Positions 16,502 to 28,487 of a stretch of 64,000 nt of DNA are shown in pieces; position 1 is the stretch's first letter; each line of letters begins with the position of its first letter. The notes beneath the pieces were generated by a model, which was not told where the DNA came from, searched no databases, and saw only the letters and a program-made list of their open reading frames with translations. Source of the stretch: Salinisphaera sp. T31B1 (GTDB lineage Bacteria; Pseudomonadota; Gammaproteobacteria; Nevskiales; Salinisphaeraceae); NCBI RefSeq assembly GCF_040361275.1, contig NZ_APNH01000003.1, positions 62,001 to 126,000 of the forward strand, in the 5' to 3' direction. The position numbers and the translations under genes are program-made.

Positions 16502-18013
16502 CTACAACGATACCGTCACGGTCTTGGTTTCGGTGTAGTTGTTGAGCACCTGTGCGCCCATTTCCCGACCCCAGCCGGACTGCTTGAATCCGCCGAACGG
16601 CAGGGCCGCATCGAAGATGTTGTAGCAGTTGACCCAGACCGTGCCGGCGCGCAGCTTGTTGGCCAGCTTGTGAGCACGACCGATATCCTGCGTCCACACG
16701 CCGGATGCCAGCCCGAAGACCGTATCGTTGGCGCGCTTGATCAATTCGGCGTCCAGGTCCGAGAACCGGGTCGCGGTGACGACCGGACCGAAGATCTCTT
16801 CCTGATAGACCTTCATGTCGTCCTTGACGTCAACGAGCACCGTCGGCTTGACGAAATAGCCGTCGCCGTCTCCCTTCTCGCCGCCCGCCGCTGCGCGGGC
16901 ACCCTGGCTCTTGCCGGATTCGAGATACCCCGTCACGCGGTCGAACTGGGTACGCGAGACCAGCGGCCCCATCTGGGTTTCCGGATCCAGGCCCGGGCCC
17001 AGCTTGATGTTGCGAGCGAACTCGGACACACCCTCGACCACCTCATCGTAGATCTTGTCGTGTACGAAAAGCCGCGAACCGGCGGCACAGCACTGGCCAT
17101 GATTGAAGAAGATGGCGTTGGCCGCCCCCGGAATCGCCTTTTCCAGGTCGGCGTCGTCGAGGATGATGTTCGGCGACTTGCCGCCCAGTTCCAGCGACAC
17201 TTTCTTGAGGTTGCCCTTGGCGGCGTCGACGATCAGACGGCCGACTTCGGTGGACCCGGTGAAGGCGATCTTATCGACCATCGGGTGTGCGGCAAGCGGG
17301 GCACCGGCCTCTTCGCCGAAACCGGTGATGATGTTGACGACACCGTCCGGTACGCCAGCCTCCTGCATGATCTCGGCCAACTTGAGACCTGACAACGGCG
17401 TCTCTTCGGCCAGTTTCATGACGATGGTGTTACCGGTCGCCAGCGCCGGTGCCAGCTTCCAGGCTGCCATCAGCAGCGGGAAATTCCAGGGGATGATCTG
17501 GCCACACACGCCCACCGGCTCGCGCCGGGTATAGGCATGCCATTCGGCGCCGGGCGCGTACGGCACGGTCGGACTGATCAACTCGCCGTTGAGCTTGGTC
17601 GCCCAGCCCGCCATATAACGAAACATCTCGGCGGCCAGCGGTACATCGGCGGCACGTGCAATCGAGATCGGCTTGCCGTTGTCCAGCGACTCGAGCTGCG
17701 CCAGTTCTTCCTGATAATGCATGATCAGGTCGCCGATCTTCCAGACGATCTGCTGGCGCTCGGCGGGAGACATGCGGGTCCAGGGCCCGTCGTCGAATGC
17801 CTTGCGGGCGGCCTTCACCGCCTTGTCGACGTCGGCCTTGCCGGCCGACTGGGCATGCGCGACGACCTGATCGTTGGATGGATTGTAGACATCGAACGTT
17901 TCGCCCGACTCGGCGGCGACCCACTGGCCGCCGATGAGCATCTTGCGCGGCGTGTCGATGAATTGCTTGACGCTGGGTTCCAGCGCGACTTCAGAAGCGG
18001 CTACTGCACACAT
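16502..18013 (-). CDS. NAD-dependent aldehyde dehydrogenase, PedI/ExaC-like
   Basis: 503 aa, the usual length for the ALDH superfamily. The general base Glu lies in LELGGKSPN (about residue 275), the catalytic Cys in FFNHGQCCAAGSR (about residue 309), the NAD-binding region is PWNFPL and FTGSTEVG, and the C-terminal PFGGFKQSGWGRE is intact. It would oxidise the aldehyde made by a quinoprotein alcohol dehydrogenase to the acid, as PedI and ExaC do. A sigma-54 promoter and an activator-like palindrome lie upstream, and the divergent neighbour is a sigma-54 activator. The substrate range cannot be told from sequence. Confidence 0.9.
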   Translation of the reverse strand: MCAVAASEVALEPSVKQFIDTPRKMLIGGQWVAAESGETFDVYNPSNDQVVAHAQSAGKADVDKAVKAARKAFDDGPWTRMSPAERQQIVWKIGDLIMHYQEELAQLESLDNGKPISIARAADVPLAAEMFRYMAGWATKLNGELISPTVPYAPGAEWHAYTRREPVGVCGQIIPWNFPLLMAAWKLAPALATGNTIVMKLAEETPLSGLKLAEIMQEAGVPDGVVNIITGFGEEAGAPLAAHPMVDKIAFTGSTEVGRLIVDAAKGNLKKVSLELGGKSPNIILDDADLEKAIPGAANAIFFNHGQCCAAGSRLFVHDKIYDEVVEGVSEFARNIKLGPGLDPETQMGPLVSRTQFDRVTGYLESGKSQGARAAAGGEKGDGDGYFVKPTVLVDVKDDMKVYQEEIFGPVVTATRFSDLDAELIKRANDTVFGLASGVWTQDIGRAHKLANKLRAGTVWVNCYNIFDAALPFGGFKQSGWGREMGAQVLNNYTETKTVTVSL

Positions 18014-18130: not shown

Positions 18131-18146
18131 CGCAAGGATCAGGCCA
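18131..18146 (-). promoter_or_regulatory. Sigma-54 promoter (-24/-12) for aldehyde dehydrogenase
   Basis: On the minus strand the sequence TGGCCTGATCCTTGCG fits the sigma-54 consensus (TGGCACG-N4-TTGCA) with invariant GG and GC separated by exactly ten bases. The -12 element TTGC is complete. Transcription would start near 18120, giving a leader of about 107 bases before the ATG at 18013. The AcoR-like sigma-54 activator gene lies next door. Confidence 0.7.
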
Positions 18147-18198
18147 CGCGCCACGGCGCTCGTTCTACCGTGTTTTTTGGTTGTTATCCGTCCGGATC

Positions 18199-18211
18199 AC
18201 AGTGTCACTGT
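18199..18211. promoter_or_regulatory. Perfect 13-base palindrome, candidate activator binding site
   Basis: ACAGTGTCACTGT is a perfect inverted repeat with a one-base centre. It lies about 85 bases upstream of the predicted sigma-54 start site of the aldehyde dehydrogenase gene, the usual place for an enhancer-binding protein site, and between that gene and the activator gene at 18392. Binding by that activator is inferred. Confidence 0.5.
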
Positions 18212-18391
18212 CACGGAACTGGCGCAACCGTGTTGCATCGCTGCGTCGGCGCCTGTCCGGACCAGTTGTGCGCGGTGTGCAAACCTGCTACAAAAATCCA
18301 AAGGTTCGTATGCCCGCCTCTTAAGCGGGACGGCCCAGAAAAAGAAAAAATGACGGAGCGGCTCGACCGCACCGCATCAGGAGGAGACACC

Positions 18392-20356
<1,965 letters not shown>

Positions 20357-20405
20357 TTCATCGGCCGCGGAGCGGGTCCGCCGGTGAGGTGAGCGGTCGA
20401 ACGAC

Positions 20406-20421
20406 TGGCACGACTCCTGCC
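20406..20421 (+). promoter_or_regulatory. Sigma-54 promoter (-24/-12) for pqqBCD
   Basis: TGGCACGACTCCTGCC matches the sigma-54 -24 element TGGCACG completely, and GG and GC are exactly ten bases apart; the -12 box CTGC differs from TTGC in one base. Transcription would start near 20432, about 29 bases before the pqqB ATG. Confidence 0.78.
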
Positions 20422-20460: not shown

Positions 20461-21372
20461 ATGTATATCAGGGTTCTGGGATCGGCCGCGGGCGGCGGCT
20501 TTCCGCAATGGAACACCAACGTCGGCCTGAACCGGGCTTTCCACGAGGGCGCGACCCGAGCTCGCGCCCGTACCCAGTCGTCGATCGCGGTCAGCGCCGA
20601 TGGCGAACGCTGGTTGCTGGTCAACGCGTCGCCCGATGTCCGGCAGCAGATTCTGGATTTCCCCGCGCTGCGCCCGGCGCCGGAAACACGCGGTACCGGT
20701 ATCGGCGCCGTGCTGCTCATGGACAGCCAGATCGATCACGCCACCGGGCTGATCATTCTGCGCGAGGGCGATACGCTGCCCGTCTGGTCGACGCGCCCCG
20801 TCTACGAAGACCTCACTACCGGTCTGCCGCTGTTCAACGTGCTCTCACACTACTGTGGCGTGGACTGGCACGAGATCGATACCGCGGCCGATCATTTCGC
20901 AATCGACGGCGTACCGGGGCTGTCGTTTCGTGCGGTCGAGCTGTCCTCGGCCGCGCCGCCGTATTCGCCGCACCGGGGCGACCCGCATCCCGGCGACAAC
21001 ATTGGCCTGGTCGTGACCGACGACGCCACCGGCGGCACGCTGTTCTATGCGCCCGGCCTCGGCGCGCCGGACGACACCATCGCCGCCGTCGCAAGGCAAT
21101 CGGATTGCCTGCTCGTGGACGGCACCTTCTTCACCGAAACCGAGATGATCGACCAGGGCGTGGGCGTGAAACCTGCGGCAGCGATGGGCCATCTGCCGCA
21201 GTCCGGCGAAAACGGCATGCTCGCCTGGCTGGCGAACTTTCCCGACAAGCGCCGGGTGCTCATCCATATCAACAACACCAATCCCATCCTCGACCCGGAC
21301 TCGCCGGAGCGTGCCACGGTCGAAAACGCCGGGGTGGAAGTCGCCTATGACGGTATGGAAATAAAGCTATGA
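20461..21372 (+). CDS. pqqB: Pyrroloquinoline quinone biosynthesis protein B
   Basis: 303 aa, the normal length. This metallo-beta-lactamase-fold protein is thought to hydroxylate the PqqA-derived intermediate. The start [18 protein letters not shown] is the family's hallmark N-terminus, and the metal-site region [13 protein letters not shown] and the late [10 protein letters not shown] are present. The ATG follows the site CAGGGGCAGG. A sigma-54 promoter lies 40 bases upstream. It overlaps pqqC by four bases. Confidence 0.97.
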
Positions 21373-22115
21373 GCGTTGCCAACGACGGTCAAAAGCCCTG
21401 GTCGCGTGACGAATTCGAAGCCCGCCTTCGGGCCAGGGGCGCGCGCTATCACATCCATCATCCCTACCACCGGATGATGCACGAAGGTCGCTGCACGCCG
21501 GATCAGATTCGTGGCTGGGTGCTCAACCGCTACTACTACCAGGTCTGTATTCCCATCAAGGATGCCAACGTGCTCGCCAACTGCCCGGACCCGGCCGCTC
21601 GCCAGCTCTGGGTTCAGCGCATCATCGACCACGACGGCGCGCCGGGCGAAACCGGCGGCATCGAAGCCTGGCTGATGCTGGCCGAAGCCACCGGCCTGGA
21701 TCGCGCGCGCGTCGCCAACCTCACTGACCTGCTGCCGGGCGTGCGTTTCGCCGTCGATGCCTATGTAAACTTCGCCCGGCGCGCGTCCTGGCAGGAAGCC
21801 GCCTGCTCGTCGCTCACCGAACTGTTCGCGCCGGAAATCCATCAGCAACGCCTGACCGGCTGGCCCGATCACTACCCGTGGATCGATGATTCCGGCCTGA
21901 GCTACTTCCGCAAGCGTCTGTCGGAAGCACGGCGCGATGTCGAACACGGCCTGCGGGTCACGCTGGGCCATTTCACCACCCGCGCCGAGCAGGAATACGC
22001 GCTATCGATTCTGCAGTTCAAGCTCGACGTGCTCTGGAGCATGCTCGATGCCATGTGGATGGCTTATGTCGAAGACCGGCCGCCGTATCACAGCTGCCCG
22101 GAGCCGCAGACATGA
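21369..22115 (+). CDS. pqqC: PQQ synthase (pyrroloquinoline-quinone synthase)
   Basis: 248 aa, typical length. PqqC is the cofactor-free oxidase that performs the last ring-forming and eight-electron oxidation step. Conserved segments include [11 protein letters not shown] near residue 32, [11 protein letters not shown], the stretch around RIIDHDG, and [13 protein letters not shown] near the C-terminus. It starts in the pqqB stop and ends overlapping pqqD, so BCD are translationally coupled. Confidence 0.97.
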
Positions 22116-22402
22116 GCGCCGGTGCCCCCGTTTCCGATAGCGCCGTGCCACAGATCACCCGTGGCCACCGCCTGCAGTTCGAACCGGCCCAGGACTGCCA
22201 CGTCCTGCTCTACCCGGAAGGCATGATCACGCTCAACGACAGCGCGGCCGAAATCCTGCAGCGCTGCGATGGCCAGCGGTCCGTACAGGCGATCTGCAAC
22301 GATCTGTCGGCCGCATTCGACGGGGCCGATGTTACGGCCGATGTGCACGCGTTCCTGAAGCTGGCAGCATCGCACGGCTGGATCGTGTTCGATCAGACGT
22401 AG
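22112..22402 (+). CDS. pqqD: PQQ biosynthesis peptide chaperone PqqD
   Basis: 96 aa. PqqD binds the PqqA peptide and presents it to the radical SAM enzyme PqqE. The family signature is visible in [23 protein letters not shown]. It begins with the ATGA overlap at the pqqC stop, which supports this start over the upstream one in the same frame. pqqE does not follow directly as in many clusters; it lies 1.7 kb away on the other strand. Confidence 0.95.
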
Positions 22403-22524: not shown

Positions 22525-22968
22525 CTATGCGAAGACTCTTTTGCTGAACAGGATATCCACGCGATAAACATGCGCAGGGTAAGCAAGAATCTCGTTCATC
22601 CGTTCATTGTCGCGAAAAATATCGCCGCCACCGCCGGCCACGTGCGCGTCGCGTCCGGTAATGTTCGGAAACGCTTCAAAGATGCCAAATGTCGTCGGCG
22701 AATAACGCACGCCGTACCAGGGGCCCGTACCGGGTTCATCCAGCACGCAACCGTAGATGTCCTTCAGCATTAGAAGCACCTCGTCTTCTTTGCCCGGTTT
22801 GGCCTCGATATGGATATAGAACGCTTTCGGGCCATCCGCGCCGTTCTCGCCGGTTACGGCCACGCCGCGATGTGGCCGGTCATTCGAGCCAGCGTCGGGA
22901 TAGGGATTGGGGCCCGGCGAGGTCGAGAGGTCTTCGTCGCGCGTTGATGGGGGTGTGGCTTTCGACAT
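22525..22968 (-). CDS. Antibiotic biosynthesis monooxygenase (ABM) domain protein
   Basis: 147 aa. The N-terminal 40 residues are polar and Pro/Asp-rich; the rest is a dimeric alpha-beta barrel of the ABM/YgiN type, with FYIHIEAKPGKEDEVLLMLKDI, a central YGVRYSPTTFGIFEAF and a C-terminal helix. Such proteins act on quinones or polyphenols, or are regulatory dimers. The ATG at 22968 is preferred over a GTG at 22992 because GAAGGA lies nine bases upstream. It is transcribed away from the LysR gene at 23077, a common regulator/target layout. Codon use is more A/T-rich than in the pqq genes around it. Confidence 0.72.
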   Translation of the reverse strand: MSKATPPSTRDEDLSTSPGPNPYPDAGSNDRPHRGVAVTGENGADGPKAFYIHIEAKPGKEDEVLLMLKDIYGCVLDEPGTGPWYGVRYSPTTFGIFEAFPNITGRDAHVAGGGGDIFRDNERMNEILAYPAHVYRVDILFSKRVFA

Positions 22969-23076
22969 GGCTCGTAATCCTTCGCTGCTCACAGCATTTG
23001 GTTGAGGTTTTCCAGATTACGAGCCTCCAGCGTTGGCACAATTGCTAAAAGCGACACCGCCTTTTACTTTGTGCAA

Positions 23077-23955
23077 GTGCGCGGACTCCCTCCAATTCAA
23101 TCGCTTGATGCATTCATCAGCGTCGTGCGTCTGGGCAGTCTTGCGGCGGCCAGCCAGGAATTACATCTCTCGGTTCCGGCGCTGAGCCGTCGTATCGCTC
23201 GGTTGGAAGCGGATTTGGGGATCAGTCTGTTCGAGCGTCGTCCCCGAGGGCTGGTGCTCACGCCCGCTGGCGAGTCCTACCACGCCAAGATAGTGCCTGC
23301 GCTTAAGCTATTGCACGTCGCGCATGCGGGCATTTCGAAAGAACGCCGACACATCGTCAGACTGACCACGATTCCGGCCTTCGCGAACCGTTGGCTGTTA
23401 CCCCGATTGCATCGCTTTTCAGCGATGCATCCCGAGATTGAAGTGGACGTCATCGCTTCGACGTCGCTCGAGCGGCTGGATGATCAGGACCTGGATTTAG
23501 CCATCCGCCTGGCCCGGCACGATACGATGCCCGAGCCGCCGCTCCTCCCCATTCATGTTTCCCCCGTTTGGAGTCCGGCGCGGATTACGGGGCCGTCTCT
23601 GCCTTCGGACGTTTTGGATCATGTGCTGCTTGATCCCGACCATCGACCGGAGTTCTGGCGGGAGTGGCTTGCTGCGTATCAGCTTGAGCAGCACGTCATT
23701 CAGAGGCGCCCGGTCGATCCCCTGTTGCTGTACGAGTTAACGGCTAGCGGCGCGGGCATTGGAATCGGTCTTGACCCGCTGGTGACCGATCTAATCGATC
23801 AAGGGCGCTTGGCAACCATGAGCGCTTACCGCGTGCGTTCGACCCGCAGCTTTCATTTGGTGCAAAAACCTGACTCCGGGTTAGCCGCGCGTCGTTTAGC
23901 CGCCTGGCTACGGGAAGAGGCGGTGTCGCGATCAAGGCCCTCGCCATCTGACTGA
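23077..23955 (+). CDS. LysR-family transcriptional regulator, GcvA-like
   Basis: 292 aa from the GTG chosen because the product then begins MRGLPPIQSLDAF, the usual N-terminus of GcvA-type regulators. The helix-turn-helix is at about 18-45 (GSLAAASQELHLSVPALSRR, in part), followed by the linker helix and a periplasmic-binding-like effector domain. It probably controls the divergent ABM gene. Codons such as TTA and CGT are commoner than in the neighbours, and the pair sits between pqqD and pqqE, so recent insertion is likely. Confidence 0.82.
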   Translation: MRGLPPIQSLDAFISVVRLGSLAAASQELHLSVPALSRRIARLEADLGISLFERRPRGLVLTPAGESYHAKIVPALKLLHVAHAGISKERRHIVRLTTIPAFANRWLLPRLHRFSAMHPEIEVDVIASTSLERLDDQDLDLAIRLARHDTMPEPPLLPIHVSPVWSPARITGPSLPSDVLDHVLLDPDHRPEFWREWLAAYQLEQHVIQRRPVDPLLLYELTASGAGIGIGLDPLVTDLIDQGRLATMSAYRVRSTRSFHLVQKPDSGLAARRLAAWLREEAVSRSRPSPSD

Positions 23956-24063: not shown

Positions 24064-25218
24064 TTAATTCGGGCCGTTTTGCCGGTGCAGCCGCTTCGAA
24101 TTCTTGGGATTGCGAAACACGATCGGCTGGGCGGTGGGCGCTTCGACAGGCTGTGCGTTCGCGCGCTCGACGGCGTCGGTCACAAGATGGTGCTCGGGCG
24201 ATTTCGCACACACGGGATCGGTGGCGTACATGTCGCCGGTGAGCATATAGGCCTGGCAGCGGCAGCCGCCGTAGTCCTTGGTTTTTTCCGAGCAGCTGCG
24301 ACAGGGTTCTTTCATCCAGTCGTAGCCGCGGAAATGATTGAAGGCGGGGGATTCGGCCCAGATCCACTCGATGTCGTGATCGACCACGTTCGGAAATTCC
24401 AGGCCGGGTAGCTGGCGCGCGGCATGGCAGGGCAGGGCCACGCCGTCCGGGGCGACGGTGAGGAAGATATCGCCCCAGCCGCTCATGCAGGCCTTGGGCC
24501 GGTCTTCGTAGTAGTCCGGCACCACGAAATACAGCTTCATCGCGCCGCCGCGCTCGCGGTATTCGGTGGTGACCCGTTCGGCATGTTCAAGCTGTTCGCG
24601 GGTGGGCATGAGCGCGTCGCGGTTGTGCCAGGCCCAGCCGTAGTACTGGGTGTTGGCCAGTTCTACATAGTCGGCGTCGAGCGCTTCGGCCATGGCGATG
24701 ATCTCTTCGATATCGTCGATGTTCTTTCGGTGCAGCACGATGTTGAGCACCATCGGATAACCGTGGCGCTTGATCGAGCGGGCCATGTCCTTCTTCTTCT
24801 CGAAGCTGTCGGTGCCGCCGAGGAAATTGTTCATTTCGGCGTTGCTGGCCTGGAAGCTGATCTGGATATGATCGAGCCCGGCCTCGGCCAGACGGGCGAC
24901 CCGGTCATCGTCCATGCCGATGCCGGAAGTGATCAGATTGGAGTAGAAACCCAGCCGCCGGCCTTCGGCCACGATCTCTTCGAGGTCCTGCCGGACCAGC
25001 GGCTCACCGCCGGACAGGCCCAACTGGGCCGCCCCCATCGCGCGGGCCTGGCGCAGAACTTTCTTCCAGTCTTCGGTGCCGATCTCGCGACCGATCCGGG
25101 CCATTTCGGTGGGATTGCTGCAATACGGACACTGCAACGGACAGGCGTAGGTCAGCTCGGCCAGCAACCAGAGCGGTCGGGCCGGGGTAACGCCATCGTG
25201 TCGCGTGGGCAGATCCAT
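24064..25218 (-). CDS. pqqE: PqqA peptide cyclase, radical SAM enzyme
   Basis: 384 aa. PqqE joins Glu and Tyr of PqqA by a carbon-carbon bond. The radical SAM cluster motif CPLQCPYC lies near residue 25-32 after [13 protein letters not shown]. The SPASM domain in the C-terminal half has the auxiliary-cluster cysteines: [31 protein letters not shown] and DPVCAKS. The start at 25218 gives the normal N-terminus; no strong ribosome site is seen there, and a terminator-like hairpin lies 38 bases upstream, so expression may be kept below that of pqqA. Confidence 0.96.
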
Positions 25219-25250
25219 GGTATTGCTACTGACAGCTGGACGGACTGAGC

Positions 25251-25280
25251 GAAAAAGAAAGGGGCATGTAGCCCCTTTCT
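25251..25280 (-). terminator. Intrinsic terminator or attenuator between pqqA and pqqE
   Basis: A perfect ten-base stem (AGAAAGGGGC with GCCCCTTTCT, 25256-25265 and 25271-25280) with a five-base loop is followed on the minus strand by a run of T. It sits 20 bases after the pqqA stop. It should end most transcripts after pqqA and let a fraction read into pqqE, giving more precursor peptide than enzyme. Confidence 0.85.
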
Positions 25281-25299
25281 CCGACATCACAACCGATAA

Positions 25300-25377
25300 T
25301 CAGCGGTTGTTGACGTACATCGTGATTTCGAAACCCAGACGCAGGTCATGGGCCTTCGGGGTGGTCCACTGTTTCAT
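25300..25377 (-). CDS. pqqA: PQQ precursor peptide PqqA
   Basis: A 25-residue peptide that is the backbone of PQQ. It begins MKQWTTPK and contains the core FEITMYVNNR, in which Glu17 and Tyr21 are separated by three residues, exactly the spacing cross-linked by PqqE. The ribosome site AAGGAGAT lies a few bases upstream. A sigma-54 promoter precedes it at 25422-25437 and a strong hairpin follows. The gene is too short for usual ORF-length cutoffs and is easily missed. Confidence 0.95.
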   Translation of the reverse strand: MKQWTTPKAHDLRLGFEITMYVNNR

Positions 25378-25421: not shown

Positions 25422-25437
25422 TGCACGCACCGTGCCA
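25422..25437 (-). promoter_or_regulatory. Sigma-54 promoter (-24/-12) for pqqA
   Basis: On the minus strand TGGCACGGTGCGTGCA matches the sigma-54 consensus TGGCACG-N4-TTGCA in all but one base of the boxes, with GG and GC ten bases apart. The start site would be near 25411, about 34 bases before the pqqA ATG. Confidence 0.82.
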
Positions 25438-25546
25438 GACGCCGACCGTTCAGCGAATGCGGTTAACTCGTTGATAATTCGATCACTCGCGCGCCTTCTC
25501 GGCAGGTTGGCGGTCGGAGAGCGGGTTATCGGCGGCTAGTGGCGCT

Positions 25547-25578
25547 TATTGGCCAGCCAGTTCGGCCACTATTGGCCA
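25547..25578. repeat. Tandem TATTGGCCA sites upstream of pqqA
   Basis: TATTGGCCA occurs at 25547-25555 and 25570-25578, 23 bases apart, about two helical turns. They lie 135-165 bases upstream of the predicted pqqA start, a normal distance for enhancer-binding proteins, and just ahead of the NtrC-type two-component genes. A binding role is inferred. Confidence 0.5.
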
Positions 25579-25683: not shown

Positions 25684-27111
25684 ATGCCTTTTTCCCGCAC
25701 GCATTCGCTCAAGAGCCTGATCCGGCGCTACCAGCTGGCGTTTCTGCTTATCCTGACCGCCGCGGCTGGCCTGGGCGGGTTGTGGTCGATCTTCTGGCAG
25801 TCCGGCTATCAGAGTTCGCTGCGTCTCAATGGCCTGCTGATCGAGGCACAGGCCGTACGGGGGGATCTGTATCGCCAGATCAAGGCGCTGGACGAAACCA
25901 AGGGCGCGGGCCCAGGCGACGACTACTGGCAACGGCTGTATCGTATCGACGAGCATTTCTATCGCATGCGCCATTTTGCCGATACAGCGGCCGAACGGGA
26001 CACGATCGCACGCATGGAGGCGGCCTACGGGCTGCTGCTGGCTGCAATGAACCGGGTTGTCACCAACCCTGCCGATCCGAATGCGCGCGAAACAACGCTG
26101 GGTCCGTGGCAGGCCGGCGATTTCGAGACTGCCTACAGCGAGCTTACCGCCCAGGTGGCCGCCCAGCGTAACGCGCTGTCTCAGCGGATGCAGTTATGGA
26201 ACCGGCTGGCGCCGTGGCTGGCCTGGTTGCCGCTGGCGCTCGGCGTCGCGGTGGCCATCTGGCTCAACCGACGTTTCGTGCGCGGGTTCGTGCGCCCCCT
26301 GGAGCAATTGGTCGCCGACACCGCCGCACTGGGCCGCGGCCAGTTGTCCTACCGGCTGACCCGACGTGGTGTGGATGAAGTAGCCCAGCTCGCCACCACG
26401 ATCAACGCCATGGCCGCCGAACTGGAGCACAACCGCCAGGCACTGGTCGAGCGCGAACGCCAGGCCGCACTCGGGGCACTGGTTCCGGTGATCGCCCACA
26501 ACATCCGCAATCCGCTGGCGGGTATCCGCGCCAATGCACAGATGCTCGATCGCCACGCCACCATCGAGGATATCGAGGAGACCGGTGAAGACATCATCGA
26601 TGCAGCCGATCGACTCGAACGCTGGTTGGGCGCGCTGCTGGCCTATCTTCACCCGCTGCAGTTGACCCGTGAGCCGCACGCCCTGGACACGATCGTGGAT
26701 GCCGCGGTAGCCGCCCTCGGCGCTCGCGTGTCGGCACACGCGGTACGCCTCAGACGCACCCGGTCGAATGCACAGGTCGCTGTCGATGCGCCGCTGCTCG
26801 AACAGGCATTGCACGGGCTGATCGCCAATGCGCTCGAAGCTTCACCCGAAGGCGCCGTGCTCGGGCTGGAAACCGACGTCGTCGACGAGTGCGTGCAGTT
26901 GCTGATCGAAGATCAGGGGCCGGGCATGGCCACGACGGTGGATCTGCACGCCGAAGCGCCCATGGCCAGCACCAAGCGCCGCGGCACCGGACTTGGCATT
27001 CCCTTCGCGTTCAAGATCATCAAGGCCCACGACGGCGAGCTCGCCTTCGAATCGATGAGCGAGGGTGGAACGCGTGTGCGTGTACGACTGCCCGCATGGA
27101 AGACGACATGA
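25684..27111 (+). CDS. Membrane sensor histidine kinase, NtrB-like output
   Basis: 475 aa. Two membrane helices (about 20-38 and 181-198) frame a periplasmic helical domain of about 140 residues. HAMP follows (about 199-252), then the phosphoacceptor box ALVPVIAHNIRNPLAGIRANA with His near residue 278, and an HATPase domain with LIANALEASPEG, DQGPGM and GTGLGIPFAFKII. HNIRNP is a variant of the common HEIRNP. It overlaps the response regulator gene by four bases, so the two form a pair. The signal is unknown; location beside pqqA suggests control of PQQ or alcohol oxidation. Confidence 0.87.
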   Translation: MPFSRTHSLKSLIRRYQLAFLLILTAAAGLGGLWSIFWQSGYQSSLRLNGLLIEAQAVRGDLYRQIKALDETKGAGPGDDYWQRLYRIDEHFYRMRHFADTAAERDTIARMEAAYGLLLAAMNRVVTNPADPNARETTLGPWQAGDFETAYSELTAQVAAQRNALSQRMQLWNRLAPWLAWLPLALGVAVAIWLNRRFVRGFVRPLEQLVADTAALGRGQLSYRLTRRGVDEVAQLATTINAMAAELEHNRQALVERERQAALGALVPVIAHNIRNPLAGIRANAQMLDRHATIEDIEETGEDIIDAADRLERWLGALLAYLHPLQLTREPHALDTIVDAAVAALGARVSAHAVRLRRTRSNAQVAVDAPLLEQALHGLIANALEASPEGAVLGLETDVVDECVQLLIEDQGPGMATTVDLHAEAPMASTKRRGTGLGIPFAFKIIKAHDGELAFESMSEGGTRVRVRLPAWKTT

Positions 27112-28487
27112 AAGACGTGCCGCATATCCTGGTGCTTGAGGATGAGCGAGCGCTCGCACGGGCTATCGACCGGCGTCTGCGCCGCGATGGCTATACGGTA
27201 GCCGTTTGCGAGAATCTCGCCAATGCGCGCCTGGCCGCGGGTCGGCGCCGGCCGGATCTGGCCGTGCTGGATCTGCGACTGCCCGATGGTGATGGGCTGG
27301 CCTTTCTGGAATGGCTGCGCGCCGACATCGTCGATGCGCCCGCGATCGTGATGACCGCCTTCGGCGAGCTCGACGACGCGATCGCGGCCATGCGTCTCGG
27401 CGCGGTGGATTTCCTCAAAAAGCCGCTCGATCTGGACGCGCTGTCGCGTATCGCCAGCGATGCCCTGCAGCCTGAGAGCCCGGTTTCATCCTCTGCGGCG
27501 TCGGGCGCCGAGTCGCCGGTCGGGCCGACGATCGTCGGCGAAAGCCCCGAGATGGTGGCCTTGCGGCGGCAGATCGAGCGCATCGCCGCGCTCGGCGCCG
27601 GGGAGGCACCGCCCAACGTACTCATCGTAGGCGAGACCGGAACGGGCAAGGACCTGCTCGCGCGCTATCTGCATGCGCAGTCGCCGCGCGCGGCCGCCGA
27701 GTTCGTCCAGGTCGACTGTGCCGCGTTGCCCCGCGATCTGATCGAGGCCGAGCTGTTCGGCCACGAAAAAGGCGCGTTCACCAACGCGCATCGTGCCCGG
27801 CGCGGGTTGCTGGCCGCCGCTGGTCAGGGCTCGGCGTTTCTCAACGAAATCGGCGAGTTGCCGCTTGCCCTGCAGGCCAAACTTTTGAACGCCCTGGAAT
27901 CACGTACCGTGCGCGAAATCGGTAGCGATACCGAGCGTCCCATCGACGCGTGGTTCATCGCCGCGACACATCGTGATCTGGCCGAGATGATGGCGGCCGG
28001 CGATTTTCGCCAGGATCTGTATTACCGGTTGAATGTTCTGACCCTGCATGTGCCGCCGCTGCGCGAGCGAGGCGAGGACGTGATCGCGCTCGCTCGTCAT
28101 TTCGTGGCGAGTATCGCTGTCCGCTATGACCGGGCTGTCCCGACCTTGACCGCCGATGCCGAGCAAGCGCTCAGACGTCACGACTGGCCGGGCAACGTGC
28201 GGGAATTGCGGCATGTACTGGAACGGGCGGTGCTCGTGCATGCCGATACGCGGATCGAGAGCACGCATCTGGGTATCGAGCGACGTGATCGCAGGCTGCC
28301 GGCGGTCGACACCGCGTCCATGAAGTCGGCCCCTGTCACGACGCTGGCCGACAGCGAACGCGAATTGATCCGACAAACACTGGCGGCTACCGGTGACAAT
28401 GTGTCCGAGACTGCGCGACGACTCGGGCTGAGCCGTGGCGCGCTGCGTTATCGGCTGGACAAGTACGATATCGAGGCCGGACGCTGA
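27108..28487 (+). CDS. NtrC-family response regulator with degenerate sigma-54 contact loop
   Basis: 459 aa. The receiver has acidic residues in VLEDERALA, the phosphorylation Asp55 and Lys in FLKKPLD. The AAA+ domain has Walker A GETGTGKD (175-182). The loop that touches sigma-54 reads GAFTNA instead of GAFTGA (222-227), and Walker B reads FLNEIGE with Asn246 in place of Asp. FIS-type helix-turn-helix at about 428-450. These changes suggest that it cannot work as a normal sigma-54 activator and may repress or use sigma-70, as some NtrC relatives do. Its start lies in the kinase stop; an ATG at 27096 is an alternative. Confidence 0.86.
   Translation: MKDVPHILVLEDERALARAIDRRLRRDGYTVAVCENLANARLAAGRRRPDLAVLDLRLPDGDGLAFLEWLRADIVDAPAIVMTAFGELDDAIAAMRLGAVDFLKKPLDLDALSRIASDALQPESPVSSSAASGAESPVGPTIVGESPEMVALRRQIERIAALGAGEAPPNVLIVGETGTGKDLLARYLHAQSPRAAAEFVQVDCAALPRDLIEAELFGHEKGAFTNAHRARRGLLAAAGQGSAFLNEIGELPLALQAKLLNALESRTVREIGSDTERPIDAWFIAATHRDLAEMMAAGDFRQDLYYRLNVLTLHVPPLRERGEDVIALARHFVASIAVRYDRAVPTLTADAEQALRRHDWPGNVRELRHVLERAVLVHADTRIESTHLGIERRDRRLPAVDTASMKSAPVTTLADSERELIRQTLAATGDNVSETARRLGLSRGALRYRLDKYDIEAGR

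Follow-up and report, generated by a model that had tools for sequence, protein, structure and literature searches.

Whether the genes for pyrroloquinoline quinone (PQQ) synthesis can be placed under sigma-54 control is the question raised by the pqq locus of Salinisphaera sp. T31B1; PQQ synthesis is mostly described as being under AgmR-type regulators in Pseudomonas. The original prediction, made from the letters of a 64-kb stretch of this genome (the window), proposed a sigma-54 promoter for pqqBCD downstream of a sigma-54 activator gene and suggested one regulon with similar sites before pqqA and an aldehyde dehydrogenase gene. We followed up this proposal by comparing the locus with those of relatives. 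Our analysis of the sequences points with good confidence to 20405–20421 as a functional sigma-54 promoter of pqqBCD, with the adjacent AcoR-like activator and RpoN probably driving a PQQ/alcohol-oxidation regulon. The features of the locus are collected in Table 1.

Table 1. Features of the pqq locus (positions in the window).
Feature	Position	Strand	Basis or remark
Aldehyde dehydrogenase (PF00171)	16502–18013	-	Domain match; under the curated ExaC and StyD cut-offs
Probable sigma-54 promoter before the aldehyde dehydrogenase gene, GTGGCCTGATCCTTGCG	18131–18147	-	Score 10.3, weak alone; conserved in seven congeners
Candidate enhancer dyad, TGCGCCAGTTCCGTGACA	18209–18226	-	One mismatch to TGTNNC-N6-GNNACA
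AcoR-like sigma-54 activator	18392–20356	+	GAF, AAA+ and Fis-type HTH domains
Probable sigma-54 -24/-12 promoter of pqqBCD, CTGGCACGACTCCTGCC	20405–20421	+	Sequence, matrix score, conservation, co-occurrence
pqqB	20461–21372	+	TIGR02108, 396.9 bits, above cut-off
pqqC	21369–22115	+	TIGR02111, 377.6 bits, above curated cut-off
pqqD	22112–22402	+	TIGR03859, 107.6 bits, above curated cut-off
pqqE	24064–25290	-	TIGR02109, 553.3 bits
pqqA, 25-aa peptide MKQWTTPKAHDLRLGFEITMYVNNR	25300–25377	-	
Probable sigma-54 promoter of pqqA, CTGGCACGGTGCGTGCA	25422–25438	-	Best site in the window (16.1), conserved
Two GGCCANTANTGGCCA-like dyads	25540–25578	.	Conserved in congener alignment; candidate site of another activator
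Sensor histidine kinase	25684–27111	+	Divergent from pqqA
NtrC-type response regulator	27096–28487	+	GAFTNA replaces GAFTGA; start inferred

The sequence TGGCACGACTCCTGCC was located by sequence match at positions 20406–20421 of the forward strand. As predicted, it carries a complete -24 element (TGGCACG) and the GG-N10-GC arrangement; its -12 element is CTGC, not TTGC, and the two mismatches to YTGGCACGRNNNTTGCW both lie in or adjoin this element (CTGCC). The full site, CTGGCACGACTCCTGCC at 20405–20421, lies 48 nt past the stop codon of the activator gene, which lies directly upstream as had been claimed. The short gap to the pqqB start codon also stood, although it amounts to 39 nt from the end of the site instead of the 40 bases given originally. 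Judging from the -12 GC, transcription of pqqB is predicted to start at about 20431. We scored the window with a 17-column sigma-54 matrix approximated from the published consensus and not fitted to data, and the two highest scores belong to the pqqA site (16.1) and the pqqB site (15.0). When 400 kb from other parts of this genome were sampled, only four sites reached a score of 15, about one per 100 kb. The exact pattern TGGCACG-N5-TGC matches only twice in the window, at the pqqB site and at 25423–25437 on the reverse strand upstream of pqqA.

The comparison with relatives carries most of the argument. Among the seven activator-bearing congeners, including T31B1 itself, identity to the majority sequence is about 96% for the pqqB site, against 54% for the 45 nt on either side. 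The other sites behave alike in the same seven congeners, with identities of 0.94 at pqqA, 0.90 at the aldehyde dehydrogenase and 0.94 at a quinoprotein dehydrogenase, and 0.50–0.66 in their flanks. Throughout the relatives, the distance from the pqqB site to the ATG stays within 38–43 nt. In 19 pqqB-bearing genomes of the order, activator and pqq genes are linked; all 25 pqq upstream regions of the activator-linked genomes score at least 12.4, whereas 21 of the 22 from genomes without a linked activator score at most 9.2, counts that are inflated by kinship since the genomes are related and perhaps four or five independent lineages stand behind them. The sole exception with a strong site (L163, genome G061) encodes a homologue of the activator at another place in the genome. 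Because unlinked homologues were also found in several other genomes without linkage, a missing linkage does not mean a missing protein family. Two negatives, L168 and L169, have pqqD and pqqE upstream of pqqB, as do L037 and L038 with the same genes, so that in L168 and L169 the unit containing pqqB is probably headed by another gene.

Within the genus, four congeners carry pqqB (73–77% identity) with neither an orthologous activator (nothing above 45% identity) nor the site. Quinoprotein dehydrogenases of the methanol/ethanol type are present in all seven activator-positive congeners and in no others. In the activator-negative congeners (L129–L132), a C-terminal reading that looks similar to an HtpX-like (M48) protease lies directly upstream of pqqB.

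The machinery for sigma-54-dependent transcription is encoded in the genome, with one rpoN gene and an activator with an intact GAFTGA loop (residue 413) and an intact Walker A motif. Together with the conserved site in diverged flanks and the co-occurrence with linked activators, these features support the original sigma-54 reading, by which the signal in front of pqqB is very likely a genuine sigma-54 promoter. AcoR in the strict sense is acetoin-responsive and linked to acetoin dehydrogenase genes. The neighbours identified here are pqq and aldehyde dehydrogenase genes, and we call the protein AcoR-like and do not file it as AcoR proper. The aldehyde dehydrogenase reaches 472.6 bits against the ExaC family NF050026, below its cut-off of 900 bits. 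An Rfam search of 16–29 kb gave zero matches. Between pqqD and pqqE, the region 22525–23955 holds a 147-aa open reading frame without an NCBIfam match and a LysR-type gene; pqqD and pqqE nearly adjoin in L126–L128. A terminator-like hairpin with a T-rich tail lies at 25258–25277 on the reverse strand between pqqA and pqqE, and it could raise the level of pqqA mRNA over that of pqqE.

Could the pqqB match have arisen by chance in a GC-rich genome? The whole-genome scan suggested along with the original prediction fits such an origin, as TGGCACG-N5-TGC has 29 matches in the 4.36-Mb genome against 28 for the reversed control. The simple pattern does not discriminate, and we therefore dropped its count as evidence and let the case rest on comparison. 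The comparison already contradicts a chance match: the conservation and position of the site, its co-occurrence with the activator and the location of the window's two top scores at the two pqq units together make it highly improbable. A second possibility is that read-through of the activator gene, or else a sigma-70 promoter, accounts for most transcription of pqqBCD, with the sigma-54 site playing a minor part. The gap between the activator stop codon and pqqB measures only 104 bp, and no terminator-like site was found in it, which would suit read-through. Against this, the site is strictly kept at its distance from the ATG inside an otherwise diverged spacer, and no sigma-70-like match was found in 17.9–25.7 kb by a scan that is weak for such GC-rich DNA. 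We regard this explanation as unlikely, and favor transcription of pqqBCD from the sigma-54 promoter.

The sites, their conservation, their co-occurrence with the activator and a dyad shared between promoters are seen directly in the genomes, and from them we infer how binding, opening and induction would proceed. RNA polymerase with RpoN would wait in a closed complex at 20405–20421 for an AAA+ activator to open it; the likeliest candidate is the AcoR-like protein with its GAF domain, whose gene lies just upstream. The GAF domain would presumably sense a substrate or product of alcohol oxidation. The same activator would drive the divergent aldehyde dehydrogenase gene and the operon of a quinoprotein alcohol dehydrogenase, and probably pqqA, so that the cofactor and the enzymes would be induced together.

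By reading upstream regions of relatives outside the genus, we found the inverted repeat TGTNNC-N6-GNNACA, a candidate binding site that presumably belongs to the AcoR-like activator. Outside the genus, a perfect copy accompanies 12 of 12 pqqA and 10 of 10 aldehyde dehydrogenase promoters, mostly 113–175 bp upstream; 400 kb of background hold 4 perfect matches, a comparison that is no independent test since the dyad was derived from these same loci. In T31B1, the dyad TGCGCCAGTTCCGTGACA lies about 70 bp upstream of the aldehyde dehydrogenase site, and throughout the genus the corresponding dyad is found 69–71 bp upstream with at most one mismatch; three of six congeners have a perfect copy. 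Near pqqB and pqqA in the genus, the only dyad found was a one-mismatch match at 20213 inside the activator gene, which is not common to the congeners. Since pqqB has no dyad of its own in the genus, its activation would have to depend on the dyad at a distance of 2.2 kb, on a degenerate site or on another activator; long-range action from the dyad at 18.2 kb is possible.

The original prediction also expected the same type of site before the quinoprotein dehydrogenase, and this was found to the left of the window. A methanol/ethanol-type quinoprotein dehydrogenase (TIGR03075, 775 bits) is encoded at contig C3:55545–57314 (L142:7546–9318), about 5–6 kb left of the window, and is followed by cytochrome c550 PedF. 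Upstream of it are the site CTGGCATCGATCTTGCG and a one-mismatch dyad; site and dyad recur in four congeners (three besides T31B1) with the same site position and 0–1 dyad mismatches. The operon just upstream of this dehydrogenase has a site scoring 15.9, accompanied at 115 bp by a dyad with one mismatch. We consider the quinoprotein dehydrogenase result to be closer to an independent test of the dyad. The remaining quinoprotein dehydrogenases of these genomes lack a strong site directly upstream, save for one operon of T31B1 itself (L144:5524–11355), in which a site scoring 17.4 precedes an aldehyde dehydrogenase and a quinoprotein dehydrogenase; this second alcohol-oxidation cluster adjoins its own, different AcoR-like activator gene. 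A further PQQ-domain match (C5:385654) was rejected as a dehydrogenase, as its size and position suggest BamB.

The dehydrogenase at C3:55545–57314 has WDYDG at the presumed catalytic aspartate, a pattern that we take to be associated with lanthanide-dependent enzymes. Its neighbours include the PedF cytochrome and SoxYZ-like and SoxH-like quinoprotein-associated proteins, and an HtpX-like (M48) protease gene (L142:3299–4489) lies nearby.

The proposal of one regulon is supported by the dyad shared by pqqA and aldehyde dehydrogenase promoters and by the quinoprotein dehydrogenase site, with the limit that pqqB and pqqA of the genus lack the dyad. The promoters may be real while pqqA of the genus, and perhaps pqqB, answers to the two-component system at 25684–28487, leaving the aldehyde and quinoprotein dehydrogenases alone to the AcoR-like protein. 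The stretch that separates pqqA from the divergent kinase gene lacks the AcoR-type dyad but contains two conserved GGCCANTANTGGCCA-like dyads, 110–135 bp upstream of the pqqA site. Together with the divergent kinase and NtrC-type regulator genes, they indicate that pqqA may have a second activator, and the kinase accompanies the AcoR-like activator and the sites in seven of seven congeners. The GGCC dyad was rejected as a genome-wide regulon motif, its counts being no higher than the control, and is kept as a local candidate at pqqA. Against such a division of control, the loop with which the response regulator would contact sigma-54 reads GAFTNA, not GAFTGA, identically in the three congeners checked, and the protein may not work through sigma-54 in the ordinary manner. 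Outside the genus, moreover, pqqA carries the AcoR-type dyad, and we found no comparable kinase and regulator genes next to it. This arrangement is conceivable, and we rate it below control by the AcoR-like activator, which remains our preferred reading. More broadly, several families of one proteobacterial order may have PQQ synthesis under sigma-54 by way of a GAF-domain activator dedicated to it, with two sigma-54 units and two activators in the genus, one of them acting over about 2 kb, so that pqqA, for the cofactor precursor, and pqqBCD, for the maturation enzymes, would be separately controllable; we offer this wider picture as speculative and rather doubtful in its entirety.

AgmR belongs to the LuxR-type response regulators, not to the sigma-54 activators. 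In the passages of PMC12997753 and PMC3480352 consulted, AgmR controls the pqq operon of Pseudomonas, which resembles the arrangement proposed for Salinisphaera in co-regulating PQQ synthesis with alcohol dehydrogenases, and no sigma-54 promoter for pqq is reported there. In Ralstonia solanacearum, rpoN1 is needed for growth on ethanol and a link between AcoR and ExaC has been predicted (PMC4676750). Both organisms pair an AcoR-type sigma-54 activator with an aldehyde dehydrogenase, whereas the word "pqq" is absent from the text of PMC4676750 and the Salinisphaera enzyme falls below the ExaC cut-off. According to PMC12826043, exaA of Azospirillum brasilense Sp7 is under sigma-54 and a LuxR-type regulator (doi 10.1128/JB.00035-17), and the expression of pqqA and exaA is tied to the ECF sigma factor RpoE6; sigma-54 control of a quinoprotein alcohol dehydrogenase, as proposed for Salinisphaera, is the point in common, but the regulator named there is LuxR-type. 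As cited in PMC13390443, hbdH of Pseudomonas aeruginosa is under PA2005 and RpoN, likewise a carbon catabolic dehydrogenase under sigma-54 and an enhancer-binding protein, although a different enzyme without PQQ. A full-text literature search, with most subscription papers outside its reach, turned up nothing on pqq genes governed by sigma-54.

The promoter type itself is well known; what is new is the proposed regulon, combining PQQ synthesis with alcohol oxidation. The analysis supplies a candidate binding motif that can be tested, and names a candidate regulator of alcohol oxidation for a group in which none was found described in the literature searched. If true, a sigma-54 regulon joining PQQ synthesis with the aldehyde and quinoprotein dehydrogenases would provide these bacteria with a simple route to a strictly inducible cofactor supply.
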